Of a stretch of 64,000 nucleotides of DNA, positions 14,219-40,748 are shown piece after piece (position 1 is the stretch's first letter; each line of letters opens with the position of its first letter). The DNA is from Roseibium aggregatum. Lineage in GTDB: Bacteria > Pseudomonadota > Alphaproteobacteria > Rhizobiales > Stappiaceae. The stretch spans positions 62,001-126,000 of the forward strand of contig NZ_JABFCZ010000020.1 in NCBI RefSeq assembly GCF_014692675.1, in the 5' to 3' direction. Made by a program: the position numbers and the translations under genes. The notes under the pieces were generated by a model that ran no database searches, was not told where the DNA came from, and saw only the letters and a list, made by a program, of their open reading frames with translations.

Positions 14219-14304
14219 TGGTGCGGGCGACGGGACTCGAACCCGTACAGCCTAGGGCCGAGGGATTTTAAGTCCCTTGTGTCTACCAGTTCCACCACGC
14301 CCGC
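14219..14304 (-). tRNA. tRNA-Leu (anticodon UAA), CCA encoded
   Basis: Read on the minus strand, the 7-bp acceptor stem GCGGGCG/CGCCCGC, the anticodon loop CTTAAAA (anticodon TAA), a variable arm and the T-loop GGTTCGAGTCC are all present, followed by discriminator A and CCA at 14219-14222. The sequence is an 83-nt class II tRNA plus CCA. The first 34 nt of the gene are repeated at 15793-15826, and a damaged copy of the 3' half lies at 14462-14495 in the opposite orientation, so the gene seems to be an integration target. Confidence 0.96.
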
Positions 14305-17611: not shown

Positions 17612-18853
17612 ATGCCAGCCCTGACCGACACCGCGATCCGACACGCGCTGAAGCGCGTTGAGATCAGCCGCAAGCAAGAGAACCTCGCCGATGGCGACGG
17701 GCGAGGCACCGGCCGACTCGTCCTCGTTCTCAAGCCCATGCCGAAGCGCGTCACGGCCGACTGGATGGCGCAACAATGGCGTGACGGCAAACGTACCAAG
17801 AAGAAGATCGGCGCTTACCCCTCGATGTCGCTCGCCCAGGCCCGCGAGGTTTTCAAGCGCGACTATGCCGACGTGATCCAGAAAGGTCGCAGCATCAAGA
17901 TCGCAAGCGACACCCGCCCCGGCACTGTAGCGGACCTCTTCGAGGGGTACGTCGCTTCACTAAAGGCCGCCAGCAAGCCCTCCTGGAAGGAGACGGAGAA
18001 GGGCCTTAACAAGATCGCCGACACTCTTGGGCGGAACCGCCTAGCCCGCGAGATCGAGGCCGAGGAAATCGTCGAACTGATCCGCCCGATCTATGAGCGC
18101 GGCGCCAAGTCGATGGCAGACCATGTGCGTTCCTACATGCACGCGGCTTTCGGCTGGGGCATGAAGTCCGACAACGACTATCGGCAACAATCGGCTCGCC
18201 GCTTTCGCATCCCCTTCAATCCAGCGACAGGTATTCCGACCGAACCGAAGGTCAAAGGCACCCGCTGGCTCGACGAGGACGAATTCGTACAGCTTTATCG
18301 TTGGCTGGAATGTCCCGACACGCCGGTTCATCCGCCCTATACCCGTGCCGTCAGGATCATCATGCTGACCGGCCAGCGCGTCCAGGAGATCGCCAGCCTT
18401 CACATCGACCAGTGGGACGCCAAGGAAAAGATCATCGACTGGTCGAAGACCAAGAACGACCAGCCCCATGCTGTTCCGGTGCCGGAACTGGCCGCAGAGC
18501 TACTCGCGTCCATCAACGTCAACGAATACGGCTGGTTCTTCCCGTCTGCCACGGACCCGTCCAAGCCTGTCAGCCACGGCACGCTTTACTCGTTCATGTG
18601 GCGCCAGAGGGACCGCGGCGTGATCCCCTATGTGACGAACCGCGACCTGCGCCGGACCTTCAAGACGCTTACCGGCAAGGCGGGGATCTCGAAGGAGATC
18701 CGCGACCGCCTCCAGAACCATGCGTTGCAGGACGTCAGTTCCAAGCACTACGACCGCTGGCACTACATGGTGGAAAAGCGTGCCGGCATGGCGAAATGGG
18801 ACAAGTTCGTCCGCGCCATGCTCGCAAAAAAGCGACTGAAAGCGGCAGCATGA
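17612..18853 (+). CDS. int: Tyrosine-type site-specific integrase
   Basis: A 413-residue integrase of the phage P4/ICE type: an N-terminal DUF4102-like arm-binding part (about residues 1-90), a core-binding SAM-like domain (about 105-215) and the catalytic domain (about 230-390). The first catalytic Arg is Arg256 (GQRVQEI), the second is Arg347 in RDLRRT, and the nucleophile is Tyr380 in KHYDRW. The usual His at the start of the second box (HDLRRT) is Arg344 here. A strong Shine-Dalgarno (AAGGAGG) precedes the ATG. It lies 120 bp inside the element edge and should act on radC. The excisionase partner is probably the RdfS-like protein at 42701. Confidence 0.95.
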   Translation: MPALTDTAIRHALKRVEISRKQENLADGDGRGTGRLVLVLKPMPKRVTADWMAQQWRDGKRTKKKIGAYPSMSLAQAREVFKRDYADVIQKGRSIKIASDTRPGTVADLFEGYVASLKAASKPSWKETEKGLNKIADTLGRNRLAREIEAEEIVELIRPIYERGAKSMADHVRSYMHAAFGWGMKSDNDYRQQSARRFRIPFNPATGIPTEPKVKGTRWLDEDEFVQLYRWLECPDTPVHPPYTRAVRIIMLTGQRVQEIASLHIDQWDAKEKIIDWSKTKNDQPHAVPVPELAAELLASINVNEYGWFFPSATDPSKPVSHGTLYSFMWRQRDRGVIPYVTNRDLRRTFKTLTGKAGISKEIRDRLQNHALQDVSSKHYDRWHYMVEKRAGMAKWDKFVRAMLAKKRLKAAA

Positions 18854-21981: not shown

Positions 21982-22998
21982 TTATTTGACTGCGCCGTTC
22001 GCGCGCGCGACTATATCGGCGCACTGCGCCATAAGCGCCTCGAACGGCTCAGCGTCATCGAAGAGCAGCCCATCCTCAACCATGCGGGCATAGTCGTCCT
22101 CCAACGCCTTCGCGCCATCGCCGACCGGCACGAGTTGCAAGCCGCCGCTGACAGCCGCTGCATAGTCGATCGGCGTGCGGTCGGCGGCTTTCTCCGCGAA
22201 GAACATCGACTTGTGCCGGGCGACAGCGTTGGCCAGCTCGCGATCGGCGAAAGCAGCTTCCGCAAAGCCGGCTTCATCCAGCCGGACAACATCGTGCCAG
22301 TGTCGTGCGAAGCGGTCGCCGCGAAGCCGCTCCTGAAGGCAAAAGACGTGGATGGCGGTCGCCTTCTCCCAGAAGGTCCGCTCCGCGTGCATGACGCGCG
22401 GACGCGCCGTCGGGAATACCAGCCCGTCGATCAGGCCGGCGGCGTCGCAGGAGACATCGCGCAGGCTCGCCGGTTCGCCCGTCGAGCGCGCGCCGAACTC
22501 CAGCATGACGCTGGGCGCGACATAGCCGGACCCGGCCGCGGTCGCCTCGTAGTCGATGAAGAGCTTGTCATCCTCGACGCGGATGGCCGCAGCCAGACCT
22601 TCGGCGGCGAGTGCGTTCGCGATCACGGGCTGCACGGTTTCCGCGACCCATGCCGGCAACCGCCGACGGACCTCGCTGGACCAGCGCTTTTCCTCGCTTC
22701 GCGTTTTCGGCAAGCCCTCGCCATTGTCCCCGACCAGATCGGGCGCGATCGCCCGAATGTCATAGGTCAGATCCACATCCTCCGAAAACCGGCGAATGAC
22801 GTGATAAGCTTTCGACAGCGACGTGCCGCCCTTGAACACTAGATGTTCGCCGAGCGGCGCAGCGTAGAGGGTCGCCAGCGCCCACACCACCCACACATCC
22901 TTTTCGAGAAGATGGGTGGGACGACCCGAACGGTCGGCCGCGACACCCAGCGCGTCGCGCCGGTCCTCGGCCGAAAGCTGGAGAAAGACATCAGCCAT
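21982..22998 (-). CDS. abiEii: AbiEii/AbiGii family nucleotidyltransferase toxin
   Basis: A 338-residue toxin of a type IV toxin-antitoxin abortive-infection system. It carries the DUF1814 nucleotidyltransferase core: LVFKGGTSLSKAYHVI (about residues 53-68) followed by FSEDVDLTYDI (about 71-81), where the Asp pair binds metal. AbiEii-type toxins transfer nucleotides, in studied cases to tRNA acceptor ends, and stop growth. The start overlaps the end of the antitoxin gene by 8 bp, so both are in one minus-strand operon. It is complete. Confidence 0.9.
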   Translation of the reverse strand: MADVFLQLSAEDRRDALGVAADRSGRPTHLLEKDVWVVWALATLYAAPLGEHLVFKGGTSLSKAYHVIRRFSEDVDLTYDIRAIAPDLVGDNGEGLPKTRSEEKRWSSEVRRRLPAWVAETVQPVIANALAAEGLAAAIRVEDDKLFIDYEATAAGSGYVAPSVMLEFGARSTGEPASLRDVSCDAAGLIDGLVFPTARPRVMHAERTFWEKATAIHVFCLQERLRGDRFARHWHDVVRLDEAGFAEAAFADRELANAVARHKSMFFAEKAADRTPIDYAAAVSGGLQLVPVGDGAKALEDDYARMVEDGLLFDDAEPFEALMAQCADIVARANGAVK

Positions 22999-23584
22999 AC
23001 GCCGCCTTTCCGACGCTCTGCGCGAGCCATGTCGGAAGCTGCGGCGCGGCGGCGACCAGTTCGCCGAACACGCCGGGCGGCATCTTCCGCTTCAATGTCG
23101 TGAGCGCGGCCTCTGCCTTTTCCGGGCCGAGCCAGGCCAGCGCCCGCACGGCCTCCCCCGCCGGCCGGTTGGCCAGGGCCAGTTGCCAGCGCGGTGCATG
23201 CCGCAATTCCACGATCTGCTTGCCGAGGTGCACCTTTCGGCTGCGCCCGGAGGTCAGATAGACCGAGCGGACGGGCACCTGCGTCGTCAAGCCAAGGGCG
23301 TTCGCCGCGGCAGCGCCGTTCGAGACGATGACCTCCCCCTTTTGGGTTGCAAGAGCCTCGACAGCCTGCTCGACCGAAGGCGTGCGCGTGCCGAACCGGC
23401 TGGCGATGGGACGCAGATAGACGCCACGACCGGCGCGGATGAGTTGCCCGCGCTCCGTCAGGCGCGACAACGCCTGATCCACGGCGGCCCGGTTTCCGAG
23501 GTGCAGCAGGCTCTTGGCGGACACAGGAGCGCCTTCGGGCAGGCCCGTCGCATGCGACAAAATCTGTTCGGTCAGCCGTGTCAT
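22991..23584 (-). CDS. abiEi: AbiEi-type antitoxin (DUF6088)
   Basis: A 197-residue antitoxin and transcriptional regulator. The N-terminal winged helix (about residues 15-65, LSRLTERGQLIRAGRGVYLRP) fits an AbiEi DNA-binding domain, and the rest matches the DUF6088 antitoxin type (ANALGLTTQVPVRSVYLTSG). AbiEi proteins bind inverted repeats in their own promoter, and such a repeat lies 11 bp upstream (23595-23624). It precedes and overlaps abiEii. Confidence 0.9.
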   Translation of the reverse strand: MTRLTEQILSHATGLPEGAPVSAKSLLHLGNRAAVDQALSRLTERGQLIRAGRGVYLRPIASRFGTRTPSVEQAVEALATQKGEVIVSNGAAAANALGLTTQVPVRSVYLTSGRSRKVHLGKQIVELRHAPRWQLALANRPAGEAVRALAWLGPEKAEAALTTLKRKMPPGVFGELVAAAPQLPTWLAQSVGKAAYG

Positions 23585-23644: not shown

Positions 23645-23709
23645 GGGGAAAGCCTTCCCCTGAGGCCGAGCCTTGGTCTCGGCCTACCCCTTCTGCGGGG
23701 AATCCCCGC
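23645..23709 (+). repeat. Three successive perfect hairpins upstream of the ardC leader
   Basis: Stem 1 is 23645-23650 with 23655-23660 (6 bp), stem 2 is 23663-23670 with 23678-23685 (8 bp), and stem 3 is 23695-23700 with 23704-23709 (6 bp). None is followed by a T-run on the + strand, so they are unlikely to be ordinary terminators. Placed before an antirestriction gene, they could form a single-strand promoter of the Frpo kind used when plasmid DNA enters a cell; this is inference. Confidence 0.55.
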
Positions 23710-23720
23710 AACGCCCCCTT

Positions 23721-23801
23721 CAGAGTGAGAGTGCGGACGGGTTTTCCGTGACGGGTTGAGGGCTGGAAGAGAGGCTTCCGGCGCCCGTCGCGGAGATCAT
23801 C
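23721..23801 (+). promoter_or_regulatory. Structured leader, copy A (upstream of ardC)
   Basis: The conserved start CAGAG-GAGAGTGCGG is followed by hairpin P1 (ACGG 23737-23740 with CCGT 23746-23749) and by P2: outer stem GACGGG 23750-23755 with CCCGTC 23784-23789, a 6-nt internal loop, inner stem 23762-23768 with 23776-23782 and loop GAGAGGC. GGAG of the Shine-Dalgarno starts 3 nt after P2. The same layout recurs at copies B and C. Confidence 0.7.
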
Positions 23802-23804
23802 CCG

Positions 23805-24767
23805 ATGGCCAGACACGATCGCAGCCCCGCAGAAGGTGGCGCGCGCAGCAACCTTTACGACGACATCACCAACAAGATCATCGCCGAGTTGGAGCAAGGG
23901 CGGCTGCCCTGGGTCCAGCCCTGGGGCGCGTCACCCAATACCGCCCCTCTGGGCCTGCCGAGAAATGCTTCAACCGGCCGTAGCTATTCCGGCATCAATA
24001 TTCTGATCCTTTGGGGCGCTGTCATCCAGCACGGCTTCCCCGGTCAGGCGTGGCTGACTTTCCGCCAAGCCCTTTCGCTTGGCGGCAATGTCAGAAAGGG
24101 CGAGCGTGGCACCACTGTTGTCTATGCCGACCGTTTCACTCCCGAGGACGAGAAACGCCGTGCCCGCGAGACTGGCGAGGATGCGCATGCCATACCGTTC
24201 CTGAAGCGGTTCACGGTCTTCAATGCCGCACAATGCGATGGCTTGCCCGATGACATCACGGCAGTCACGCCGCAACCGCCGCCGGGCCTGATCGAACCTC
24301 AGGTCGAGGCGCTGATCCGGGCCACCGGCATCGACTTCCGAATTGGCGGCGATCGCGCCTTCTACATGCCCTCGCTCGACTATGTGCAGGTGCCGCCTCC
24401 GCAAGCCTATTTCGAGCCTATCAACTGGCACCGGACGGCCCTGCACGAGCTGGGTCACGCCAGCGGCCATCACAGCCGCCTCAGCCGCGATCTGACCGGC
24501 TCGTTCGGCTCGAAGAAATACGCTTTCGAGGAGATGATTGCCGAACAGGCCGCAGCTTTCAGTTGCGCTGCGCTCGGGATCGTGCCGACCGTCCGCCATG
24601 CCGATTACATCGGGTCGTGGCTGGAGGTCATGCGCGAGGATTCCCGCGCCATTGTCCGCGCAGCCTCGCAGGCCAGCAAGGCGGCGGACTGGCTGCTGTC
24701 GCATCTGCCTGTCGAGGAGATCGAGGAGCCGGATGCGAGCGTAACCGACCGGAGGGCCGCGGCATGA
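23805..24767 (+). CDS. ardC: ArdC family antirestriction protein
   Basis: A 320-residue protein with an N-terminal ArdC ssDNA-binding domain (DUF1738; NLYDDITNKIIAELEQG near residue 16 and NASTGRSYSGINILIL near 53) and a C-terminal zinc-metalloprotease-like domain with HELGH at residues 214-218 and a downstream Glu in EEMIAEQ. ArdC proteins bind incoming single-stranded DNA and shield it from restriction in the recipient. The ATG at 23805 follows the structured leader and its GGAG. DUF2958 overlaps the stop by 4 bp. Its position after a run of hairpins suggests early expression after transfer. Confidence 0.92.
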   Translation: MARHDRSPAEGGARSNLYDDITNKIIAELEQGRLPWVQPWGASPNTAPLGLPRNASTGRSYSGINILILWGAVIQHGFPGQAWLTFRQALSLGGNVRKGERGTTVVYADRFTPEDEKRRARETGEDAHAIPFLKRFTVFNAAQCDGLPDDITAVTPQPPPGLIEPQVEALIRATGIDFRIGGDRAFYMPSLDYVQVPPPQAYFEPINWHRTALHELGHASGHHSRLSRDLTGSFGSKKYAFEEMIAEQAAAFSCAALGIVPTVRHADYIGSWLEVMREDSRAIVRAASQASKAADWLLSHLPVEEIEEPDASVTDRRAAA

Positions 24768-25159
24768 TCCTCCTCACCGGCACACAGCGCGACCGCCTGC
24801 TGGCAAATGGCCGCCAGCGCGATCAGGATCACATCCCGGTCGTGAAGTTCTTCAACCCCCTTGGCGAGGGCGTCTGGCTCGCCACCGAACTGGACGAGGA
24901 CGGCGACATCATGTTCGGCCTGGCTGATCTCGGCTATCCCGAACTGGGGTCGTGGAGCCTTACCGAAATGCAGTCAGTCCGGCTGCCCTTCGGAATGGGC
25001 ATCGAGCGCGATCTGCTGTTCACCGGGGATTTCCCGATCTCGGTCTGGGCCGAGGCCGCCCGTGAGAGCGGCAGTATCCGCGCCGCTGAGCGCCTGCTCT
25101 ACCGCGTCGGGGCGAGCTATTCCCGTACATCCGCCGATACAGAAAGCCGGAGTGCCTGA
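24764..25159 (+). CDS. DUF2958 family protein
   Basis: A 131-residue protein beginning MILLTGTQRDRLLANGR and carrying the conserved segments VVKFFNPLG, WLATELDEDGDIMFGLADLG and ERDLLF, which define DUF2958, a family common on alphaproteobacterial plasmids and integrative elements. Function is unknown. It overlaps ardC by 4 bp (ATGA), so translation is coupled and a joint role in establishment is likely but unproven. Confidence 0.9.
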   Translation: MILLTGTQRDRLLANGRQRDQDHIPVVKFFNPLGEGVWLATELDEDGDIMFGLADLGYPELGSWSLTEMQSVRLPFGMGIERDLLFTGDFPISVWAEAARESGSIRAAERLLYRVGASYSRTSADTESRSA

Positions 25160-25198
25160 TTTCCGGGTTTCAGGTTCTACGGCTCGCGTCGCTCTCTT

Positions 25199-25275
25199 CA
25201 GAGGAAGAGGGCGGCGCTTCGCTTCGTGACGGGCTGATAGCCGGAGAGAGAGGCTCACCGGCGTCCGTCATGGAG
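25199..25275 (+). promoter_or_regulatory. Structured leader, copy B (upstream of parB)
   Basis: CAGAGGAAGAGGGCGG is followed by a weak P1 (GCG/CGC around 25214-25222) and P2: outer stem 25228-25233 with 25264-25269 (one G-U), 6-nt internal loop CTGATA, inner stem GCCGG 25240-25244 with CCGGC 25258-25262, loop AGAGAGAGGCTCA. Relative to copies A and C, the U-G pair in the inner stem is C-G here, a compensating change. GGAG starts 2 nt after P2. Confidence 0.7.
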
Positions 25276-25283
25276 CAACTGAC

Positions 25284-27422
25284 ATGGCCACTGCCGTTCA
25301 GAAGATCACCCTGTCGTCCTCGCGCGACATTCCCTTCAACAAGCTGGTGCTCAGCCAGTCCAACGTCCGGCGCGTCAAGGCCGGGATCTCGGTCGAGGAA
25401 CTGGCCGAGTCTATCGCCCGTCGCGGCCTGATCCAGTCCCTGCATGTCCGCCCGGTCGTGGATGCCGAGGGCAAGGAAACCGGCATGTTCGAAGTGCCCG
25501 CCGGCGGTCGCCGCTTCAGCGCGCTGGAACTGCTGGTCAAGCAGAAGCGCCTCGCCAAGGTCGCGCCGGTCCCGTGTGTTGTTTCGGAGGCCAGCGCCGA
25601 TGTGCTGATCGACGAGGTATCGCTCGCCGAGAATATCGAGCGCGCACCGCTGCATCCGCTCGATCAGTTCCGCGCCTTCCAGACCATGCGCGAAAAGGGC
25701 ATGACCGAGGAAGCCATCGCCGCCGCCTTCTTCGTGGATGCGAAGGTGGTGAAACAGCGCCTGCGTCTGGTTTCCGTCTCACCGACATTGCTCGACGTCT
25801 ATGCCGAGGATGGCATGACGCTGGAACAGCTCATGGCCTTCAGCGTCAGTTCTGACCATGCCCGTCAGGAGCAGGTCTGGGAAGCGATCAAGGACGGCTG
25901 GCAGAAGGAACCTTACCTCATCCGACGCCTGCTGACCGAAACCACGGTCCGCGCCGCCGACAAGCGGGCAGTGTTTGTCGGCATTACCGCCTATGAGGAG
26001 GCTGGCGGCTGCGTGCTGCGCGATCTCTTCCAGCAGGACGATGGTGGCTGGTTGCAAGACCCGGTGCTGCTCGACCGGTTGGTGGGCGAAAAACTCAAGG
26101 CCGAGGCCGAGGCCATCGCCGCCGAGGGCTGGAAGTGGATCGAGGTCGCCATCACCTTTCCCTATGGTCACGATCATGGCCTTCGCCAGATTGTCGGCAC
26201 CACAGTCGATCTGACCGAAGAGGAACGCGCCACCCGCGAGGCATTGCGCGACGAATATGACCGGCTTGAAGCCGAATATGGCGAGGCTGATGAACTGCCA
26301 GACGAGATCGACGCCCGGCTGGGTGAAATCGAACAGGCGCTGGAAACCTTCGAGCGCCGCCCGATGACCTTCGACCCCGTCCAGATCGGCACGGCAGGCG
26401 TCTTCATCAGCATCGACGCCGATGGCGCATTGCTGGTCGAGCGCGGCTATGTTCGCGCCGAGGATGAAACGCCTGCGGAACCGGAGGCTGAGATCGTTGA
26501 CCCGGAAACCGGCGAGGTGATCCAGCGGGCAGAACCGGAGGTGAGCCGCATGCGTGCGGTTATCACGCTGGGCGGTCAGCCGGTCGAACCGGAGGAGGAT
26601 GACGAGACCGAGACCATCAAGCCGCTGCCTGATCGTCTGGTCAGCGAGTTGACTGCACATCGCACCCTGGCGCTGCGGGATGCGGTGGCGGTGAACCCGC
26701 ATGTCGCCATGACGGCACTGTTGCACCGGCTGGTCATGGATTGCTTCATGCCGCGTTCCAGCCGCGGATGCCTGGAAGCACAGGTCCGGGAGGTTCATCT
26801 GCCCGCACAGGCCGAGGATCTGCGCGATAGCGCGTCAGCCAAGGCCATCGCTGACCGCCACGAACGCTGGGGCGATCATGTCCCGGCAGACGATGCCGCC
26901 CTCTGGGATTGGCTGACCGATCTGGACGATGGATCGCGCATGGATCTGCTCGCCCATTGCGTCAGCTTCGGTGTCAACGCGCTCTATGAGAAGCCGAATC
27001 CTTACAGCGGAACGGGCGTCAGCCAGCACGGGCTGGACGTTCGCCTGTCGCAGGCTGATCGGCTGGCGCGTTCAACCGGCCTCGACATGGTGGCCGTGGG
27101 CTGGCGGCCGACGGTTGGCAATTATCTCGGCCGCGTGACCAAGCCGCGCATCCTTGAAGCTGTACGTGAAGGCGCTGGAGATCGAGCCGCTGAACTGATC
27201 GGGCACCTCAAGAAGGGAGACATGGCCAAGGAAGCCGAACGCCTCCTGGCGGAATCCGGCTGGCTGCCTGAGCCGCTGCGCATGGTGGATGATGGTGTCG
27301 AAGTCGATCCGGCATCGGGCGCTGCGGCAGAAGCCGACGATCTGCCCGATTTCCTCTCCGGCGATGGCGAGGACGACCCGGCTGACGACGAGGAAGAACA
27401 GCACATGGTCGCTGCTGAATAG
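25284..27422 (+). CDS. parB: ParB/RepB/Spo0J family protein (long ICE-type)
   Basis: A 712-residue protein. The N-terminal ParB/sulfiredoxin-like domain (about residues 10-105) shows PFNKLVLSQSNVRR, VEELAESIARRGLIQSL and VPAGGRRFSALELL; a KorB/HTH-like domain follows (about 110-190, EEAIAAAFFVDAKVVKQRLRL). The remaining 500 residues, with an acidic centre and acidic C-terminal tail, are characteristic of the long ParB-like proteins of alphaproteobacterial integrative elements and plasmids. It should bind centromere-like sites and may serve partition of the excised circle with ParA (44144), or regulation. It has structured leader B and a terminator directly downstream. Confidence 0.88.
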   Translation: MATAVQKITLSSSRDIPFNKLVLSQSNVRRVKAGISVEELAESIARRGLIQSLHVRPVVDAEGKETGMFEVPAGGRRFSALELLVKQKRLAKVAPVPCVVSEASADVLIDEVSLAENIERAPLHPLDQFRAFQTMREKGMTEEAIAAAFFVDAKVVKQRLRLVSVSPTLLDVYAEDGMTLEQLMAFSVSSDHARQEQVWEAIKDGWQKEPYLIRRLLTETTVRAADKRAVFVGITAYEEAGGCVLRDLFQQDDGGWLQDPVLLDRLVGEKLKAEAEAIAAEGWKWIEVAITFPYGHDHGLRQIVGTTVDLTEEERATREALRDEYDRLEAEYGEADELPDEIDARLGEIEQALETFERRPMTFDPVQIGTAGVFISIDADGALLVERGYVRAEDETPAEPEAEIVDPETGEVIQRAEPEVSRMRAVITLGGQPVEPEEDDETETIKPLPDRLVSELTAHRTLALRDAVAVNPHVAMTALLHRLVMDCFMPRSSRGCLEAQVREVHLPAQAEDLRDSASAKAIADRHERWGDHVPADDAALWDWLTDLDDGSRMDLLAHCVSFGVNALYEKPNPYSGTGVSQHGLDVRLSQADRLARSTGLDMVAVGWRPTVGNYLGRVTKPRILEAVREGAGDRAAELIGHLKKGDMAKEAERLLAESGWLPEPLRMVDDGVEVDPASGAAAEADDLPDFLSGDGEDDPADDEEEQHMVAAE

Positions 27423-27477
27423 TTCTCAGGCGGGGTGGCTTCGGCTGTCCCGTTTGCACCCTCCGTTTCCGCAACTC

Positions 27478-27503
27478 GCCCGGTCCTTGTGATCGGGCTT
27501 TTT
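27478..27503 (+). terminator. Intrinsic terminator after parB
   Basis: Stem GCCCGGTC/GATCGGGC (one G-T) with loop CTTGT at 27478-27498 runs into TTTTT at 27499-27503. It ends only 15 bp before the next ATG, so it may also act as an attenuator for the 101-residue gene. Confidence 0.7.
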
Positions 27504-27518
27504 CATTGGAGCGCTTCC

Positions 27519-27824
27519 ATGCCCGCCATCATCGACGTCGATCAAATCTTTCTTGAGGATCGCGAACATTCCCTATCGGAGCGCACCCTGCCCTGGGAGG
27601 AAAGCCGCGACGGCATGACCGTTGTTGTGGAGCCAAAGCCCCATTGGGCCGAAGACATGCGCGTCTTCCGGCTCGATGCCCGTGAATATTGCCGCTACGC
27701 CGAATGGACAGCTCATGGCGCTCGTGCCCGTTTCTTCGGTCATATCGACACCTCAGGCGATGATCTGATGATGAAGGCGCGCGCGATGATTGCCCGCGAG
27801 ATTGCCGATGGGCTTTGGAGCTGA
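27519..27824 (+). CDS. Small conserved-element protein, unknown function
   Basis: A 101-residue acidic protein (MPAIIDVDQIFLED ... SLSERTLPWEE). I do not recognise a domain; similar short proteins accompany ParB in related elements as far as I can judge from context. The ATG at 27519 has TTGGAGCG 8 bp upstream and directly follows a terminator hairpin. The frame is open upstream to 27435, but the terminator in between argues for the shorter form. Confidence 0.6.
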   Translation: MPAIIDVDQIFLEDREHSLSERTLPWEESRDGMTVVVEPKPHWAEDMRVFRLDAREYCRYAEWTAHGARARFFGHIDTSGDDLMMKARAMIAREIADGLWS

Positions 27825-28241
27825 AGACCCGATCGCAGGGTGTTGGGCCGTGAAGGTGGGAGGTCTGCACCGGACGGGTCCAATCCGGCTTCACCATACA
27901 ATCCGCCGTCCCCATCAGGGCAAGCGGCAGCCATCTCTGGCCTGAACGGAACACGATCCTGATGCCAGCATGGTGGCAAGGCTGGCGCGGCAGAGCATCT
28001 GCGACGGGTATCCGGCATCCTGTCAGATGCGAAAAACCACCCCCGCTTCCATTCGCAAACCTTGGTCCGATCCGTCTCTTTGACATTCAACCCCGAAGGG
28101 GTCGGCTTACGCGCGCGTGCCGCCCTCGGGGATTCGGAAAAAGTCCGAACGCCCGAGGGTGATTGCAGATCCGGTCAGACACTTCGGGCGCCTGTCGCGC
28201 GGGGGATGGTCCCCCGCCTCCAAAGACAGGAGCCGGAACCC
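27825..28241 (+). other. Gene-free leader with a nested double hairpin
   Basis: No gene is supported in these 417 bp. The stretch 28123-28159 forms CCCTCGGG/CCCGAGGG closing a second stem TTCGGA/TCCGAA with loop AAAAG, separated by only GA and CG; it is perfect throughout. A further perfect hairpin is 28199-28205 with 28211-28217. None has a T-tail. They lie 80 and 25 bp before the 54-residue gene and may be a regulatory leader or a small RNA. Confidence 0.5.
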
Positions 28242-28406
28242 ATGTCCTATGCAGATGCCACCGCCTTCGCCGCCAGCCTTGCCGCCACGCTGATGGTTTC
28301 GATTGTCGTGTTTCAGGCCGGAGACGGCACCCACGCCGCTTGCCCCGCCGCCGAGTTCGACGGCGACGACGACATGGTGAAGCTGGAGCTGGACCCGTGG
28401 GAGTAA
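28242..28406 (+). CDS. Small single-pass protein, 54 residues
   Basis: The 54-residue frame begins MSYADATAFAASLAATLMVSI, has a hydrophobic segment of about 15 residues and ends in an acidic tail (FDGDDDMVKLELDPWE). ACAGGAG lies 9 bp upstream of the ATG at 28242. The mixture of a short hydrophobic helix and acidic tail, the good ribosome-binding site and the structured leader support a real gene. Function and family are unknown. Confidence 0.55.
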   Translation: MSYADATAFAASLAATLMVSIVVFQAGDGTHAACPAAEFDGDDDMVKLELDPWE

Positions 28407-28518
28407 GGCGCGAAAGCGCCTCATCCCCGACGGCCCGAGCGCGGAGACCCGCGCTTCGGGCCTTCATTGCCTCAAGATGGCCCCCCATCGTCGGCAGCGG
28501 AACCGGGAACAAGCCCGG

Positions 28519-28598
28519 TCAGAGAGGAAGAGTGCGGGCCGTTCGGCCGTGACGGGTTGATGGCTGGAGAGAGAGGCTTTTCGGCGCCCGTCATGGAG
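28519..28598 (+). promoter_or_regulatory. Structured leader, copy C (upstream of the 182-residue gene)
   Basis: TCAGAG-GAAGAGTGCGG is followed by P1 (GGCC 28537-28540 with GGCC 28545-28548) and P2: outer stem GACGGG 28551-28556 with CCCGTC 28587-28592, internal loop TTGATG, inner stem GCTGG 28563-28567 with TCGGC 28581-28585, loop AGAGAGAGGCTTT. GGAG starts 2 nt after P2. P1 is ACGG/CCGT in copy A and GGCC/GGCC here, so pairing is kept while sequence changes. Confidence 0.7.
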
Positions 28599-28606
28599 TG
28601 ATGCCG

Positions 28607-29155
28607 ATGACCTTTGCCCGTTCCGAAACCTTCCGTTCCATCGGTCAGATTCTGGCTGCCGATGTTCTGCCCGCGCTTTATCGGTCGCAAAAGCTGCCGT
28701 TGCGCATCTCATGCCTCGGCGCGGCCAGCTATGACGCCAGTGACGCGGCGAACAGCTTTGACCGCGTGATCCCGCTTGGGGAATGCCCATCACTGGACGA
28801 GGCCATACAGACCGCAGCCTTGCGCGTGGCGCGCGGTAATATTTGCACGGGGCCGGACAGCTTCCCGTTTTTTCAGCCGCGCATCATGCTCATTCAGGAC
28901 CGAGATCAGCGCCTGGTCCTCGCCGGCGAAATCCGCGCCGGCATTATCCTCTGGCAACAGCCAGTCGCGTCCGATGCCGAGGCACGCAGGATCGTGACCG
29001 AGGCCAGCCGCCTGCGCGGTATGGCGTTCCGGGCTTCGGACCCCGGCGATGCGAGACGGCTGCGTTACCGCGCCGCTGCGCTGGAGGCCCGATTGGTCGA
29101 TCCCTTCTGGCGCGAAACCTCGGCCGATCTGCTCCGCCTGCCGCAGGCCGCCTGA
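28607..29155 (+). CDS. Conserved-element protein of unknown function (182 aa)
   Basis: A 182-residue soluble protein (MTFARSETFRSIGQILAADV ...). No known motif is visible; a helical C-terminal part is rich in Arg and Ala. The ATG at 28607 is chosen because GGAG of the structured leader lies 9 bp upstream; two earlier in-frame starts (28598 GTG, 28601 ATG) fall inside that site. It is the first gene of a group of three unknown proteins ending at a strong terminator (30294). Confidence 0.65.
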   Translation: MTFARSETFRSIGQILAADVLPALYRSQKLPLRISCLGAASYDASDAANSFDRVIPLGECPSLDEAIQTAALRVARGNICTGPDSFPFFQPRIMLIQDRDQRLVLAGEIRAGIILWQQPVASDAEARRIVTEASRLRGMAFRASDPGDARRLRYRAAALEARLVDPFWRETSADLLRLPQAA

Positions 29156-30327: not shown

Positions 30328-30368
30328 AGCTGCGCTTTGAGAGTCAGAGGCGGGCCGGAAGGGGTTAA

Positions 30369-30424
30369 GTCCGGGCGGTCGAGAGAGAGCGCTGTTCGGA
30401 CCTGTCCTTTTCGCTCTCCTGAGG
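30369..30424 (+). promoter_or_regulatory. Structured leader, diverged copy D (upstream of the methyltransferase-helicase)
   Basis: A GTCAGAG start (near 30341) is followed by stem GTCCG 30369-30373 with CGGAC 30397-30401, whose loop carries GAGAGAGAGCG. A CGCTCTC run at 30412-30418, next to the ribosome-binding GAGG (30421-30424), can pair with that loop. It shares the GA-rich loop and placement with copies A-C but not the rest of the sequence. Confidence 0.4.
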
Positions 30425-30432
30425 TTCCAGAC

Positions 30433-33400
30433 ATGAACATGGTGTTCCCCGTGACCGATCCGGTCACGCCAATGGCGGCTGCGCCCGCCATTCTGGCTGC
30501 GGCCAATCATCTGCTCCCCCATCTCGAACGCGGTCAGCGCGTCGATGCTGCCATCCTGCGCGGTGTGATGGAAACGGCCTTCGGCGCATCTGACGCTACC
30601 GGCGTCTGGGACTGGAAGCTTGCCTATGAGGCCTGCGAGGTCGCCACGGTCCTCTTCCTGCGCAAATACGGAAAGGCGCTTTTCCGTAAAGCCGCGTCTC
30701 CGGCTGCACGGATTTCCGTGCTGGCAAAGGTCGCGGGGCTGCTGCCCACGCAGACCCGACGTTCCGAGGAAAGCCAGAACTTCCAGCAATTTTCGACGCC
30801 GATCCCGCTCGGCCTTACCGCTCTGACGGCTGCCGCGATTACGCCCGATGACAGGGTGCTGGAACCATCGGCGGGCACCGGCCTTCTGGCGATCTTGGCG
30901 CAGACCATCGGCGGCTCGCTGATCCTCAACGAACTGGCCGAGACCCGGGCCGATCTGCTTGCCCAGATCTTTCCGGCTTTTGCCGTCACCCGCTTCGACG
31001 CCGCCCAGATCGATGATCATCTGGCTCCGGATGCTGTCCCCTCCGTGGTGCTGATGAACCCGCCATTCTCGGTCATGGCCAATGTCAGCGGGCGTGTCGC
31101 GGATGCGGCCTATCGCCATGTTGCCGCGGCACTGGCCCGTCTTGCTCCCGGCGGTCGGTTGGTGACGATCACCGGCGCTGGCTTTGGCCCCGAAGCTCCG
31201 GCATGGCGGGACGCCTTCATCCGCTTGCAGGCCCGTGGCCGCGTGGTGTTCAGCGCTGCCGTCGATGGTGCGGTCTATGCAAAGCACGGCACCACGATCG
31301 ACACGCGGCTGACCGTTATCGACAAACTGCCCGCCGACGATCCCGCCAGTTTGCCGGCTTCGCCGGGGATCGCGCCTGATGTTGCCACGCTGATCGGATG
31401 GATCGAGGAACAGGTTCCGCCGCGCCTGCCAGTGTCATTGCCGAAGATCGTGGTTTCCGCTTCGGCCACCGCGCCGAAGACCGTGCGGGGCTATCTCGCT
31501 CGCTCGGCGGCTACGCGATCTGTCGCTGCTTCGGCCAATGATCCTGATGGCGTCGAACTCGCCTATGAGACCGTGGACTGGACGCCACCGGAAGGCGCTC
31601 GCCTGTCCGACGCGATCTATGAGGAATATGCGCTGCAATCGCTGCGTATCGCTGGTGCACAGCCGCATCCGACCAAGCTGGTGCAATCCGCCGCCATGGC
31701 CTCGGTCGCACCGCCCAAGCCTTCCTACCAGCCCATGCTGCCGCCCGACATCTGCGCGCGTCTGTCGGACGCCCAGCTTGAAACGGTGATCTATGCCGGT
31801 GAAGCCCACGCCGATCATCTCGCCGGCGCCTGGACCGTGGACGAGCATTTCGACAATGTGAGCGCCGCGCCCGAGGATGCTGCCGGATCGATCCGCTTTC
31901 GCCGGGGCTTCATGCTCGGTGATGGAACCGGCGCTGGCAAGGGTCGCCAGTCCGCCGCCATCATTCTCGACAACTGGCTGCGAGGGCGCCGCAAGGCGAT
32001 CTGGATCTCCAAATCCGACAAGCTGATCGAGGACGCGCAACGCGACTGGTCGGCGCTCGGCATGGAGCGGCTGCTTGTCACACCTCTGTCACGCTTCCCG
32101 CAGGGCAAGCCGATCACGCTATCGGAAGGCATCCTGTTTACCACCTATGCCACGCTGCGCTCCGATGACCGGGGCGAGAAGGTTTCCCGCGTCAAGCAGA
32201 TCGTCGAATGGTTGGGGTCCGATTTCGATGGAGCCATTATCTTCGACGAGAGCCATTCCATGCAGAATGCCGGTGGCGGAAAAGGTGAACGCGGTGATGT
32301 CGCCGCCTCGCAGCAGGGACGTGCGGGCCTGCGGCTTCAGCACGCGCTGCCCGACGCCCGCGTCGTCTATGTCTCGGCGACTGGCGCCACCACCGTCCAC
32401 AATCTCGCCTATGCTCAGCGCCTCGGCCTCTGGGGCGGTGAGGACTTTCCGTTCCAGACCCGCGCCGAGTTCGTCGAGGCGATCGAATCCGGTGGCGTTG
32501 CGGCCATGGAGGTCCTGGCCCGCGACCTGCGATCTCTCGGCCTCTATACCGCCCGCTCACTCTCCTATGATGGCGTCGAATATGAACTGATCGAGCATCA
32601 GCTCACGGACGAACAGCGGCACATCTACGACTCATATGCTGCCGCCTTCGCTGTCATTCATGGGAACCTGGACGCGGCGATGGAAGCCGCCAACATCACC
32701 GGCAGCGAGGGGACGCTGAACCGGCAGGCCAAATCCGCCGCCCGTTCGGCCTTTGAAAGCACCAAGCAGCGCTTCTTTGGCCATCTGCTGACCTCCATGA
32801 AAACCCCGACCCTGATCCGGTCCATTGATGCCGATCTTGAAGCGGGCCATGCGGCCGTCATCCAGATCGTCTCGACCGGCGAAGCGCTGATGGAACGGCG
32901 GCTATCCGAGATCCCCACCGAGGAATGGAATGATATTTCCGTCGATGTCACTCCGAGGGAATATGTCGGCTCGTATTTGCAGCATTCCTTTCCGGTGCAG
33001 CTCTATGAACCTTTCAGCGATGGCGAGGGCAACCTGTCGTCACGCCCCGTCTTCCGCGATGGTCAGCCGGTGGAATGCCGCGAAGCGGTGGCGCGGCGCG
33101 ACGAGATGCTGGAGCAGCTGGGTTCGCTTCCGCCTGTCCCCGGTGCGCTCGACCAGATCGTGCAGCGCTTCGGCACGGATATTGTGGCGGAGGTCACGGG
33201 CCGCTCACGCCGGATCGTGCGCAAGGGTATTGGAGCAGCGGCCCACCTAGCCGTCGAGAACCGTGCGCCTTCTGCCAATCTTGCCGAGACTTCGGCCTTC
33301 ATGGATGATCAGAAGCGCATTCTGGTCTTCTCGGATGCCGGTGGCACGGGGCGCAGCTATCACGCCGAACTCTCGGCGCGAAACCAGCGGCTGCGCGTGC

Positions 33401-34755
33401 ATTACCTGCTGGAGCCAGGCTGGAAGGCAGATGCCGCCATTCAGGGGCTGGGCCGCACCAACCGGACCAATCAGGCGCAGCCGCCGCTCTTCCGCCCCAT
33501 CGCTACGGATGTCAAAGCCGAGAAGCGCTTCCTCTCGACCATCGCCCGCCGTCTCGACACGCTGGGCGCGATCACGCGCGGCCAGCGCCAGACCGGCGGT
33601 CAGGGGCTGTTCCGTCCGGAGGATAATCTGGAATCCGCCTATGCCCGCGACGCGCTGCGCCAGCTCTATCTGCTGATCGTGCGCGGCAAGGTCGAGGGCT
33701 GCTCGCTCGAACGGTTTGAATCCGCCACCGGCCTGAAGCTGATGGACAGCACCGGTGTGAAGGACGAACTGCCGCCGATCACCACCTTCCTCAACCGCCT
33801 GCTGGCGCTGACCATCGAATTGCAGGGCATCCTGTTCTCGGCCTTCGAGCAGCTTCTGCAGGCACGGATCGACGGAGCAATCGCATCCGGCACCTATGAC
33901 ATGGGGCTGGAGACGCTGAAGGCCGAAAGCTTCATCGTCACAGACCGGCAGGTCATCCACACCCATCCGGGCACCGGCGCGGAAACCCGGCTCCTGACGC
34001 TCACCGAGCGCAAACGCAATCAGCCGGTTACGCTCAATGCCGCCCTGGCGGAACTGGATGATCCCCGCGCAAGATTGCTCATCAACGAGCGATCCGGTCG
34101 CGCTGCCGTTCAGGTCCCGACCACCAGCGTCATGCTGGATGATGGTGAGATCGAAAGGCGCGTGCGGCTGATCCGGCCGATGGAAGCGATGAACATTCCG
34201 GTGCGGGCGATGGGCGAGACCCATTGGATCGAGGCTGACCGTGCCGCCTTCACCACAGCCTGGAAGGCGGAACTGGCCCAGGTGCCGGAGTTCACCGACA
34301 GCATCCTGCATATGGTGTCAGGGCTGCTTCTGCCGATCTGGAAACGCCTGCCGCAGGACTCCGCCCGCGTCTATCGGCTCCAGACCGACGAGGGCGAACG
34401 CATCATCGGTCGCCGGGTATCGCCGGCCTGGGCCGCCAATGCTTCGACCAGTGGCGTCACCAACAACCTGACACCGGATGCCGCCTATGCCGCGCTGATC
34501 GAAGGTCGCACGATCCTTGATCTCGCCGAAGGGCTGAAACTGCGCCGCGTCCGCGTCATGGGCGCCAACCGGATCGAACTGACCGGCTTTACTGATGCGA
34601 TGCGTGACCGGCTGCGAGCCTATGGCCTCTTCAGTGAGATCATCTCGTGGAAACTGCGCTTCTTCGTGCCCGTCGATGCAACGGGGCCGGAGATCATCGG
34701 CAAACTGCTTGACCGCTTCCCGGTTGAGCGCATCGGTGAGCGGGAGGCCGCATAA
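30433..34755 (+). CDS. Methyltransferase-helicase fusion (strawberry-notch-like)
   Basis: A 1,440-residue protein. The N-terminal third is a class I SAM-dependent DNA methyltransferase with VLEPSAGTGLLA (motif I, about residue 138) and NPPF at 209-212, the catalytic motif of N6-adenine methyltransferases. The rest is a superfamily 2 helicase-like engine of the strawberry-notch/SNF2 type: GTGAGKG at about 498-504, DESH at 605-608, and a C-terminal helicase domain with LGRTNRTNQ. Such fusions recur on proteobacterial plasmids and integrative elements, where antirestriction or transfer-DNA processing has been suggested. The ATG at 30433 has GAGG 9 bp upstream. It overlaps the Toprim gene by one base. 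Confidence 0.9.
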   Translation: MNMVFPVTDPVTPMAAAPAILAAANHLLPHLERGQRVDAAILRGVMETAFGASDATGVWDWKLAYEACEVATVLFLRKYGKALFRKAASPAARISVLAKVAGLLPTQTRRSEESQNFQQFSTPIPLGLTALTAAAITPDDRVLEPSAGTGLLAILAQTIGGSLILNELAETRADLLAQIFPAFAVTRFDAAQIDDHLAPDAVPSVVLMNPPFSVMANVSGRVADAAYRHVAAALARLAPGGRLVTITGAGFGPEAPAWRDAFIRLQARGRVVFSAAVDGAVYAKHGTTIDTRLTVIDKLPADDPASLPASPGIAPDVATLIGWIEEQVPPRLPVSLPKIVVSASATAPKTVRGYLARSAATRSVAASANDPDGVELAYETVDWTPPEGARLSDAIYEEYALQSLRIAGAQPHPTKLVQSAAMASVAPPKPSYQPMLPPDICARLSDAQLETVIYAGEAHADHLAGAWTVDEHFDNVSAAPEDAAGSIRFRRGFMLGDGTGAGKGRQSAAIILDNWLRGRRKAIWISKSDKLIEDAQRDWSALGMERLLVTPLSRFPQGKPITLSEGILFTTYATLRSDDRGEKVSRVKQIVEWLGSDFDGAIIFDESHSMQNAGGGKGERGDVAASQQGRAGLRLQHALPDARVVYVSATGATTVHNLAYAQRLGLWGGEDFPFQTRAEFVEAIESGGVAAMEVLARDLRSLGLYTARSLSYDGVEYELIEHQLTDEQRHIYDSYAAAFAVIHGNLDAAMEAANITGSEGTLNRQAKSAARSAFESTKQRFFGHLLTSMKTPTLIRSIDADLEAGHAAVIQIVSTGEALMERRLSEIPTEEWNDISVDVTPREYVGSYLQHSFPVQLYEPFSDGEGNLSSRPVFRDGQPVECREAVARRDEMLEQLGSLPPVPGALDQIVQRFGTDIVAEVTGRSRRIVRKGIGAAAHLAVENRAPSANLAETSAFMDDQKRILVFSDAGGTGRSYHAELSARNQRLRVHYLLEPGWKADAAIQGLGRTNRTNQAQPPLFRPIATDVKAEKRFLSTIARRLDTLGAITRGQRQTGGQGLFRPEDNLESAYARDALRQLYLLIVRGKVEGCSLERFESATGLKLMDSTGVKDELPPITTFLNRLLALTIELQGILFSAFEQLLQARIDGAIASGTYDMGLETLKAESFIVTDRQVIHTHPGTGAETRLLTLTERKRNQPVTLNAALAELDDPRARLLINERSGRAAVQVPTTSVMLDDGEIERRVRLIRPMEAMNIPVRAMGETHWIEADRAAFTTAWKAELAQVPEFTDSILHMVSGLLLPIWKRLPQDSARVYRLQTDEGERIIGRRVSPAWAANASTSGVTNNLTPDAAYAALIEGRTILDLAEGLKLRRVRVMGANRIELTGFTDAMRDRLRAYGLFSEIISWKLRFFVPVDATGPEIIGKLLDRFPVERIGEREAA

Positions 34756-39208: not shown

Positions 39209-40450
39209 TCAGGCGCTTAGGATCGGGATGATGGTTTTGACATGGGCGTCGATGCGCTCCAGCACGGGCGGCGGGACCACTTCGCGCTCCGGCAGTGTCC
39301 ACCATTTCGTATCAATGCGTTTCACCGTCTCGACAACGGCCTTGAGCACGGCTGGCTCGGGAAGCCTTGCCCGATTGGCAAACGTCTTCCAGCGGGCCGG
39401 GGCCAAGCCCTTGAAGGCCCGCTCGCCGCCCAGAGACAGCGCCAGCCCATCTGCCGGAATATAGGGCACGGTCGAAAGCATGTCGTAGATCGGTGCTAGA
39501 GCGGGCGTGTCGCCGTCGCCCGGGTAGATCAGCGACCAGTTCTTGAGGTGCATGTCGCCATTGCCCATGACCACCGAGAAGGTCAGCCGCCGGACAAACT
39601 CCAGCGCGGCGAACGGCGAGATCGCAACATTCAGCACAGAGGCGATGTCGTGGGAGGCGGCGCCATCATATTTGCGCGCCGGGTACAGGCCGAAAACCTG
39701 CGCGAAATCCTCGATATGGATGCGCTGCCCGTCTGCCCCGCGATCAAAACGCCGCACGAGCAGGACAAGCCCCTCGGCAAGTGTTTCAAACTCTTCGGGA
39801 ATGCCCTCGAACTGGTCTCGGCTGACCAGTTCCCGCTCGGGCACATTCATGCCGATGGCTTCGGCAAGCGCGAGGTTCGCGAACTCGTTCTCCGACACGC
39901 CCGGAAAGGCGGTCGAGGGGAATTTCGCAATATATTGGCCCTCGTCATCCCCGAGCGGCAAGGTCAGCCCGCCGCCCTTGCCGGTGTTCTTCATCACCGA
40001 GAGCTTCATCTGCACGCCTGCCAGCGAGAAGCGGGCCTTGGGCCGTCCTTGGGTTGGCGCCGCCCCGATGCCGGGTTGACCGTCACTGGGCAGCACCCGA
40101 ACGGCCCCCGGCAAATCCGCACCAAGGGTGGCCAGGAGATCGAAATCATTCCCCGACCGCACATTACCCGCATGGTGCTTTTCCATCGCCTCGCGCAGCC
40201 GGTCTTCGGGCAGCAGGTTGGCAAAGAAGGGCGGCAGGCTGCCTGCGACGGGTCGCGGATCCTTGCGCAAGCCCCCTGATGCCGCGCGAAGGGATAGGCT
40301 CAGAACCGGATGGCCTCCAGTCGCGCGATAGGCCGGATCAAGGCTGAAGGCGTTGAAATCACCCGGCGTCCTGACGATCGTGCCAACCTTCGCACTGTTC
40401 AGGAACACGTCCAGCGCGGTGATGGTCTCAGCGGTACGGACGGCTGTCAT
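39209..40450 (-). CDS. hipA: HipA-family serine/threonine kinase toxin
   Basis: A 413-residue HipA. The N-terminal Couple_hipA domain is present (about residues 10-110, FLNSAKVGTIV ... LPPFFANLLPEDRL), followed by the kinase fold with the activation-type GVQMKLSV segment (about 155) and the catalytic VMGNGDMHLKNWSLIY (Asp in NGD, about residue 300). HipA phosphorylates glutamyl-tRNA synthetase or other targets and promotes dormancy. The ATG at 40450 overlaps the end of hipB by 23 bp; an upstream frame start inside hipB is less likely. It would stabilise the element in the host. Confidence 0.92.
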   Translation of the reverse strand: MTAVRTAETITALDVFLNSAKVGTIVRTPGDFNAFSLDPAYRATGGHPVLSLSLRAASGGLRKDPRPVAGSLPPFFANLLPEDRLREAMEKHHAGNVRSGNDFDLLATLGADLPGAVRVLPSDGQPGIGAAPTQGRPKARFSLAGVQMKLSVMKNTGKGGGLTLPLGDDEGQYIAKFPSTAFPGVSENEFANLALAEAIGMNVPERELVSRDQFEGIPEEFETLAEGLVLLVRRFDRGADGQRIHIEDFAQVFGLYPARKYDGAASHDIASVLNVAISPFAALEFVRRLTFSVVMGNGDMHLKNWSLIYPGDGDTPALAPIYDMLSTVPYIPADGLALSLGGERAFKGLAPARWKTFANRARLPEPAVLKAVVETVKRIDTKWWTLPEREVVPPPVLERIDAHVKTIIPILSA

Positions 40451-40748
40451 CGTCGCTCTCCGGTTGCGGGCTGAAGGCCGGATGATCATCCTCGGCCTCG
40501 GGGCGCAAAAGCGCCTCGATGGCGGGCACCATTGCCTGCGGGACCAGCATCATTTCCAGCCCAAGCGCCCTGGCAATGTTGATCAATGTCGTGGTGCGCG
40601 CAGCCGCCGCCCCCGTCTCGATGTCGCGGTAGCGCGGGCGCGAAATGCCCGCAAGATCGGCCACCTGCTCCTGCGTCAACCCCGCTGCAAGACGCGCGCG
40701 GCGAAAATGGTCGCCGATCAGCCTCAGTGTTTCTTCTTCCGCCTTCAT
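40428..40748 (-). CDS. hipB: HipB-type antitoxin (Cro/CI family)
   Basis: A 106-residue helix-turn-helix protein with the XRE core LTQEQVADLAGISRPRYRDIET (about residues 24-45), and a C-terminal acidic, disordered tail of the kind that binds HipA. It should repress its own promoter, where inverted repeats are present (40763-40827). It is the first gene of the hipBA operon and overlaps hipA. Confidence 0.9.
   Translation of the reverse strand: MKAEEETLRLIGDHFRRARLAAGLTQEQVADLAGISRPRYRDIETGAAAARTTTLINIARALGLEMMLVPQAMVPAIEALLRPEAEDDHPAFSPQPESDDDSRPYR

Follow-up and report, generated by a model that had tools for sequence, protein, structure and literature searches.

Several unrelated genes of alphaproteobacterial mobile DNA are preceded by structured 5′ leaders of one family, which is formed on the sense strand and probably controls the translation of establishment genes on plasmids and integrative elements of this class. 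Three copies (A, B and C; type I) and one copy of a related leader (D; type II) are found in a 64,000-nucleotide (nt) stretch of Roseibium aggregatum DNA (contig NZ_JABFCZ010000020.1, positions 62,001 to 126,000 of the forward strand), here called the window, in which all coordinates are counted unless another locus is named. Comparison of many copies shows, at the level of sequence, that the leaders have a common structure with conserved pairing of the Shine-Dalgarno (SD) sequence, that the folded strand is RNA, that the start codon follows at a near-fixed distance, that the genes behind the leaders belong to unrelated families and that there is a second architecture with the same 5′ motif; regulation by the leader, and a trigger for it, are what we infer. 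The leader would be a common on/off control of genes that probably help mobile DNA to settle in a new bacterium. The four copies and the genes directly behind them are the following (aa, amino acids).

23721 to 23798, + strand: type I leader A, before ardC (cmsearch, 93.7 bits; RNAfold)
23805 to 24767, + strand: ardC, with ArdcN and MPTase-PolyVal domains (Pfam PF08401, PF18818)
25199 to 25278, + strand: type I leader B, before the ParB-like gene (cmsearch, 78.4 bits; fold)
25284 to 27422, + strand: ParB-like gene, 712 aa (Pfam PF02195)
28522 to 28601, + strand: type I leader C, before the 182-aa gene (cmsearch, 80.1 bits; fold)
28607 to 29155, + strand: conserved gene for a 182-aa protein, with a second in-frame ATG at 28601
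30340 to 30425, + strand: type II leader D, before the helicase gene (80.1 bits with a model that contains copy D itself)
30433 to 34755, + strand: strawberry-notch-like helicase gene, 1440 aa from the ATG behind leader D (Pfam PF13872, PF13871, scanned from an upstream in-frame TTG)

Leaders A, B and C had been noticed in a first-pass annotation of the DNA and were found again at the places claimed by pattern, by folding and by covariance model. The core pattern matches the window exactly three times, and the covariance model, whose 22 founding sequences include these copies, recovers them with E values of 1.8e-22 to 1.6e-18, the next match having an E of 0.51; the observation is real, and chance is excluded by these values. 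Searches with the model revealed no type I copies beyond these three in the window or in the organism's own genome. The annotation was right in its three copies; it had overlooked the related type II leader at 30340–30425.

Type I leaders begin with an unpaired, near-invariant AGAGNNAGAG segment (AGAGUGAGAG in copy A), which is followed by one long hairpin made of a GC-rich clamp (GACGGG/CCCGUC), an asymmetric internal loop (UUGAN), an upper stem variable in sequence and an apical AGAGG loop (23770–23774 in copy A). Under the clamp, four to six weaker, G·U-rich pairs reach into the SD. While the annotation had correctly described a two-stem hairpin, it let the outer stem end 2–3 nt short of the SD; RNAfold and RNAalifold extend it, so that GGAG pairs with an upstream YUYC and the SD comes to lie inside the helix. 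In the predicted folds of the window copies (−35 to −41 kcal/mol), the whole GGAG of copy B (25272–25275) is paired with CUUC and that of copy A (23792–23795) with UUCC (23744–23747; centroid fold), whereas in copy C (SD at 28595–28598) only the GG is paired, with CC. RNAalifold predicts the same hairpin, including the pairs with the GG of the SD, from a MAFFT alignment of 22 diverse copies that was made without regard to structure (A2, the source of covariance model R1). The predicted anatomy is that of a translational operator, in which a rigid clamp of GC pairs and conserved loops are combined with a weak helix across the SD. The probability that the SD is unpaired was calculated for 102 sequences and averages 0.174, versus 0.434 with shuffled leaders; for 39 of the 102 it is below that of all 20 shuffles.

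A small, variable hairpin in the 5′ part (ACGG/CCGT or GGCC/GGCC), which the annotation took for a conserved element, did not hold up: the competing helix has a mean length of 4.08 base pairs in 101 sequences and 3.73 in shuffles. As it uses the SD-pairing bases, it could at most be an alternative fold, and its role as a conserved anti-sequestrator was dropped because it hardly exceeds the shuffles. A leader peptide was rejected as well. In 77 of 98 sequences the conserved UGA in GUGACGGG closes an open frame whose start lies four or more codons upstream, but a second frame behaves likewise in 55 of 98; the distance to the 5′ end is variable (28–30 nt), and there is no conserved single start codon.

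Selection on the pairing is apparent from several comparisons. In A2, 94.3% of the pair cells hold standard pairs, as opposed to 40–49% when the partners are slid by one to three columns, and seven pairs are changed on both sides, compared to 2.3 in shuffles (0 of 500 as high). On a tree of 165 rows, pairing was kept in 225 of the 285 substitutions that started from a paired state, where 110.5 were expected from the substitution spectrum of unpaired columns (0 of 20,000 simulations). For the four pairs over the GG of the SD and two adjoining bases the ratio is 58 of 69 versus 26.7 expected (0 of 20,000), and for the two bases opposite the GG alone 17 of 23 versus 9.8 (40 of 20,000). These comparisons show the SD to be held in a conserved helix. 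Further, the stem cells of 102 non-redundant rows comprise 1600 Watson-Crick pairs, 347 G·U, 22 A·C and 67 other combinations, and four gaps; since an A·C in the sense strand is a G·T wobble on the antisense strand, this ratio of G·U to A·C indicates that the molecule which folds is the sense RNA and not the antisense DNA strand.

The position of the leader is nearly fixed. R1 matched 176 and 103 times in the loci searched, and 150 and 103 of these matches were aligned (253 rows); a start codon (250 ATG, one GTG) follows GGAG at 7–10 nt in 251 of them. In a wider set of 310 matches, 277 of them distinct, 264 have a reading frame behind them, which begins with ATG in 263 cases and lies 6–10 nt from the SD in 261. 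The 13 leaders without a frame, a list read by eye, are accounted for by five contig ends, four altered SDs, three type II leaders and one miss of the script. Behind the 264 leaders are genes for ParB-like proteins (102), ArdC (97), DUF932 proteins (36), the 182-aa protein (15), a 131-aa protein (3), eight singles and three short frames left unclassed, and the earlier statement that the genes behind the leaders are unrelated is borne out by the separate families of the ParB-like, ArdC, DUF932 and 182-aa proteins. Among the singles are an AlpA-like protein and RadC, as assigned by Pfam, the RadC leader being weak (22.5 bits). A gene annotated as RadC behind a leader on a 78-kilobase (kb) Pukyongiella plasmid (L024) was not counted as such, as BLAST places it in the 182-aa family. 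The 182-aa protein has 503 relatives, although it has no Pfam match above cut-off and no NCBIfam match; its structure model (mean pLDDT 60.5) is too weak for searching. Small genes with a leader of their own stand about 445–530 nt before the next leader in four loci (L094 at 4386, L175 at 3680, L046 at 1972, L049 at 1946); three of the four are one family, and the two tested (L094, L175) have no Pfam match.

The leader consensus is specific to each gene family, an indication that the copies are old and have evolved apart. The leader belongs to a subset of ArdC genes, as it is present on 12 of 55 ArdC domains from 385 genomes (two result sets compared by eye). All 154 pairs of adjacent leaders on 113 loci, some of which overlap, are co-oriented, with a median spacing of 1472 nt. 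Within a gene family the leader (0.73–0.81) is conserved to much the same degree as the first 300 nt of coding sequence (0.67–0.77, up to 60 pairs per family), and the 60 nt upstream of the leader at 0.28–0.31, which is the random level in an ungapped comparison that hides the gapped three-hairpin block described below. No conserved promoter was seen directly upstream, the information content of ungapped columns being low there by a measure that likewise hides the block.

Searching with copy C by blastn gave 99 places on 58 plasmid records, 57 of which carry alphaproteobacterial genus names (Bradyrhizobium, Paracoccus, Mesorhizobium and others), the remaining one being named arsenite-oxidising bacterium NT-25; PLSDB lists 32 of the records as conjugative, 23 as non-mobilizable and three as mobilizable. 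Of 385 genomes sampled from the class, 27 have an R1 match, as do 34 of 398 genomes of a phylum sample, all 34 belonging to the same class (the number of out-of-class genomes in that sample is not stated), and a pattern scan of GTDB genomes yielded at least 119 stretches. Five further genomes with R2 matches at E 0.001–0.006 were left uncounted, this being about chance level over 385 genomes. Recent duplication of the DNA together with its flanks, which would have explained the likeness of A, B and C, is excluded: the sequences before the three elements cannot be aligned with one another, and each copy has counterparts in numerous genera. Among ArdC leaders and among DUF932 leaders, however, the block upstream is frequently shared as well.

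The type II leader was found through weak R2 matches. It has the 5′ AGAGNNAGAG in common with type I, but its hairpin is longer and carries a GAGAGAGAGCGC loop, and the SD (GAGG in the window) is immediately preceded by GCUCUCC, which is well conserved; in the window the leader lies 7 nt from the ATG of the 1440-aa strawberry-notch-like helicase. In 25 sequences 85.2% of the helix positions are paired, compared to 45–58% when slid, and nine pairs are changed on both sides versus 5.7 in shuffles (4 of 500 as high). GCUCUC is able to pair with either the loop or the 5′ segment; RNAalifold picks the loop, and pairing of this kind would be a pseudoknot inside the long hairpin. Model R3 detected type II in 12 of 318 genomes, each of which belongs to the 27 (of 385) that carry type I. 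The 40 type II places examined lie before the helicase (33), a KlcA/ArdB antirestriction gene (2), other frames (3) or at a contig end (2). Both types occur on the Pukyongiella plasmid L024 (leaders at 1909, 6655, 8538, 9142 and 15369), with three type I leaders before the genes for ParB, DUF932 and the RadC-annotated protein and two divergent ones of type II, one in front of a DUF6878-annotated gene and the other in front of a helicase-like frame.

Directly upstream of leader A another structured element is found.

23645 to 23717, + strand: three-hairpin block upstream of leader A (GGGGAA/UUCCCC; GGCCGAG/CUCGGCC; GCGGGG/CCCCGC)

By a crude pattern, the block is directly upstream of 60 of 105 ArdC leaders and 17 of 33 DUF932 leaders. 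Its left end, GGGGAA, was located in 53 of 63 non-redundant cases, and the border to unrelated sequence is mostly sharp. Two versions of hairpin 2 exist, both with the pairing intact: 38 sequences have GGCCGAG/CUCGGCC, and 14 have GCCGGCA/UGCCGGC or a variant of it. The non-Watson-Crick cells of hairpins 2 and 3 comprise 16 A·C, seven G·U and 29 others, a ratio of A·C to G·U that differs from that of the leader (Fisher p 3e-13), though not from 1:1 (p 0.09), and makes the block look DNA-level, as if it acted as a folded single strand or a recombination target. Where no intact leader is present, the block is seen, for instance, on Agrobacterium and Caulobacter plasmids and, weakly (E 1e-3), on a Treponema plasmid, with no match of the leader model there. 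It may be a site of recombination or of single-strand initiation. Away from an intact leader (L223, L225, L226, near 4001), it adjoins defence-like cargo or integrases; in L223 it is followed by an apparent remnant of a leader 5′ end. In two loci (L079 near 352, minus strand; L165 near 2547, plus strand) hairpin 3 is interrupted at the same point by sequence beginning with CAGGCTGTGC, and the reverse complement of such sequence borders the right half of hairpin 3 in L079 and, upstream of its leader, in L112; this looks like one element inserted into the hairpin.

Around the leaders of the window, an integrase gene (17612–18853) is followed by UvrD and AbiE cargo, ardC, the DUF2958 gene, the ParB-like gene, the 182-aa gene, the helicase and a toprim gene, and then by genes for RepA, a ParA-like protein, an SLT transglycosylase, a DUF3363 relaxase, TraG and a T2SSE-family ATPase (at 52349), an order matching that of a trb-bearing plasmid of Ketogulonicigenium.

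24764 to 25159, + strand: DUF2958 gene (Pfam PF11171)

The covariance-model search of the window gave no match before the DUF2958 gene, so that no leader of its own was found for it. Toxin-antitoxin-like genes, AbiE (21982–23584) and HipA (39209–40489), stand on either side of the establishment module. Both ArdC and the strawberry-notch helicases figure in PMC5512222 among proteins considered there as early effectors of an invading element, and ArdC of R388 is, as outlined in PMC7213743, required in the recipient and not in the donor. On a Tardibacter plasmid (L227, 8657–12009) separate genes are listed for the ArdC part and the zincin part, and a gene for a reverse transcriptase/maturase lies between the two, an arrangement reminiscent of a group II intron.

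Leaders that sequester the SD, such as thermometers and the operators of ribosomal proteins and phage coat proteins, place the ribosome site in a hairpin with a recognisable loop; what sets the present case apart is that one leader stands before members of several gene families, unrelated to each other, on a mobile element. As a kind, the SD-covering leader is known; one that is common to establishment genes across a bacterial class appears to be new. That the annotation did not recognise the leader as a described RNA family agrees with Rfam, which is without a match on the leaders of the window or of the loci of 12 relatives. Rfam 15 at gathering threshold detected only a tRNA (14222–14304) in the window; at E up to 10 there were six sub-threshold matches between 23600 and 28700, none of which is on a leader, and the relatives' loci gave only a cobalamin riboswitch and a tRNA. 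A literature search, mostly at the level of title and abstract and with a 2017 survey of 224 candidate RNAs outside it, gave no recognisable description of the leader. The radC RNA motif (RF01754), outlined as a candidate cis-regulatory RNA of Proteobacteria in PMC2864571, differs in having 149 positions; it did not exceed 40 bits in any of nine leader-bearing genomes (best, 23.9 bits), and no match was at a leader. STAXI, outlined in the same source, resembles the leader as a structured element near genes for ssb, topoisomerase, antirestriction and integrase, and its authors weigh single-stranded DNA (ssDNA) against RNA and favour RNA; it differs by its tandem pseudoknots, often with UUCG loops, and is absent from the Rfam matches obtained here.

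Two systems are similar in arrangement. EGeRS1 and EGeRS2 of the pLS20 family are conserved structured regions repeated before ardC and other establishment operons on conjugative plasmids, for which transient expression in the recipient has been proposed; EGeRS1 is given as 400–600 bp, present on Bacillus plasmids and of unknown mechanism, EGeRS2 as a repressor-controlled promoter (as outlined in PMC8708921). The leader, in contrast, is alphaproteobacterial, ends in the SD and folds as RNA; with about 80 nt (about 150 nt including the block of copy A) it is set apart from EGeRS1 by its length. The Frpo/ssi ssDNA promoters are likewise repeated structured elements, found before anti-defence genes of leading regions, but they act as DNA (as outlined in PMC11541004), while the pairing of the leader is of the RNA type and only the block upstream of copy A resembles such DNA-level hairpins.

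A likely way for the leader to work is the following. The fold would keep translation low by covering the SD, and something would recognise the common AGAG segment and the AGAGG and UUGA loops and thereby open the SD helix or lock it; the presence of 5′ AGAGNNAGAG in both types and the near-invariant AGAGG loop suggest a common ligand. The genes would be switched together, most usefully right after the element has entered a new cell, and the most useful logic for such genes would be release in a recipient in which a donor-made factor is missing. The repressor logic of p576, as outlined in PMC8708921, resembles this proposal.

Several points weigh against control of translation by the leader. 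In an R-scape-like test against phylogenetic nulls, significance is reached by few pairs: over all pairs, 46–58 is significant under one null (E 0.015) and no pair is when the null preserves column rates, while in the structure-only test 43–61 and 46–58 are significant under both. The claim that bases change while pairing is kept stands strongly for pair-keeping substitution, while classical covariation is modest, as most change is a one-sided exchange of G-C and G·U, which that statistic does not reward. The null of the tree test was drawn from other columns of the same element, with parsimony on the element's own tree, and alignments A3 and A4 were fitted to the covariance model. For the leaders of the 182-aa gene (n = 8) the SD is not predicted to be hidden (0.461 versus 0.381 shuffled). 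The base opposite the A of the SD is unpaired in 35 of 102 rows, 23 of which have G there, so that the helix frequently covers GG alone; the SD itself is changed in four of the 277 distinct matches. No trans-acting factor was found, and any such factor need not share a replicon with the leader, as locus L022 is a 6.5-kb plasmid with a lone leader; this could mean that the switch is intrinsic or depends on a factor of the host and not on a donor-made one. Finally, oriT (the origin of transfer) was not located, there being no convincing nic site near the relaxase by the nic consensus, and a leading-region position is therefore an assumption.

Other functions of the leader can be envisaged. It could be a signal in the RNA that serves antitermination of transcription or the stability of the mRNA, with SD pairing as a by-product; recurrence before several co-oriented genes of one element is the typical placement of antitermination signals, and the conserved unpaired AGAG segment could load a factor. 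Yet the leader abuts the SD, copy B lies between co-directed genes and the SD pairing is itself selected, which leaves this explanation unlikely. Direct opening of the SD helix, by a small molecule as in a riboswitch or by heat as in an RNA thermometer, would fit the conserved internal and apical loops on a short SD-covering stem with weak, G·U-rich pairs close to the SD, and the single copy on the 6.5-kb plasmid suits an intrinsic switch; however, the downstream genes have no common metabolic theme, the 5′ AGAG segment is conserved like the loops although it is outside the fold, and the fold is very stable for a thermometer, so that we regard an intrinsic sensor as improbable. That the hairpins act as folded ssDNA on the transferred strand (an Frpo-like promoter or an initiation site), the RNA fold being incidental, could be argued from the ssDNA promoters which precede similar genes elsewhere (as outlined in PMC11541004) and from the block, where compensatory changes go along with an un-RNA-like ratio of A·C to G·U. 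This is quite improbable for the leader itself: each of its 347 G·U, against 22 A·C, is an A·C mismatch on the template strand, the element contains the SD and stands a near-fixed number of nucleotides before the start codon, and no −35/−10-like sequence was seen in the stems by reading, without a scan. A recently duplicated or mobile repeat devoid of its own function, as might be suspected from several copies per element and from the solitary occurrence of the block, is highly improbable in view of the unrelated flanks of A, B and C, the family-specific consensus, the pair-keeping substitutions and the placement before start codons. Binding of CsrA/RsmA via the GGA sequences in the SD and stem-loop can practically be dismissed, for the apical loop is AGAGG and a CsrA match exists in only two of 15 leader-bearing genomes, with none in the other 13.

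With control of translation through the SD helix as the probable function, a more comprehensive scheme is offered tentatively and is, as a whole, rather unlikely to hold. Conjugative elements of alphaproteobacteria would have a post-transcriptional establishment regulon, in which a single RNA operator, built in either of two architectures that share AGAGNNAGAG for recognition, closes the mRNAs of antirestriction, ParB-like, DUF932 and helicase genes in settled cells; on entry into a cell where the locking factor is absent they would open jointly, and the DNA-level block before ardC and DUF932 genes would add a single-strand entry signal.

The way in which plasmids turn on anti-defence genes soon after entry has been worked out for the ssDNA promoters of the F-like type and in part for the pLS20 family. 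A short and widespread leader makes this question approachable for a whole class of bacteria by reporters, probing and pull-downs, and it provides a searchable signature for further establishment and anti-defence genes. It would be a rare example of an RNA-level regulon of mobile elements.

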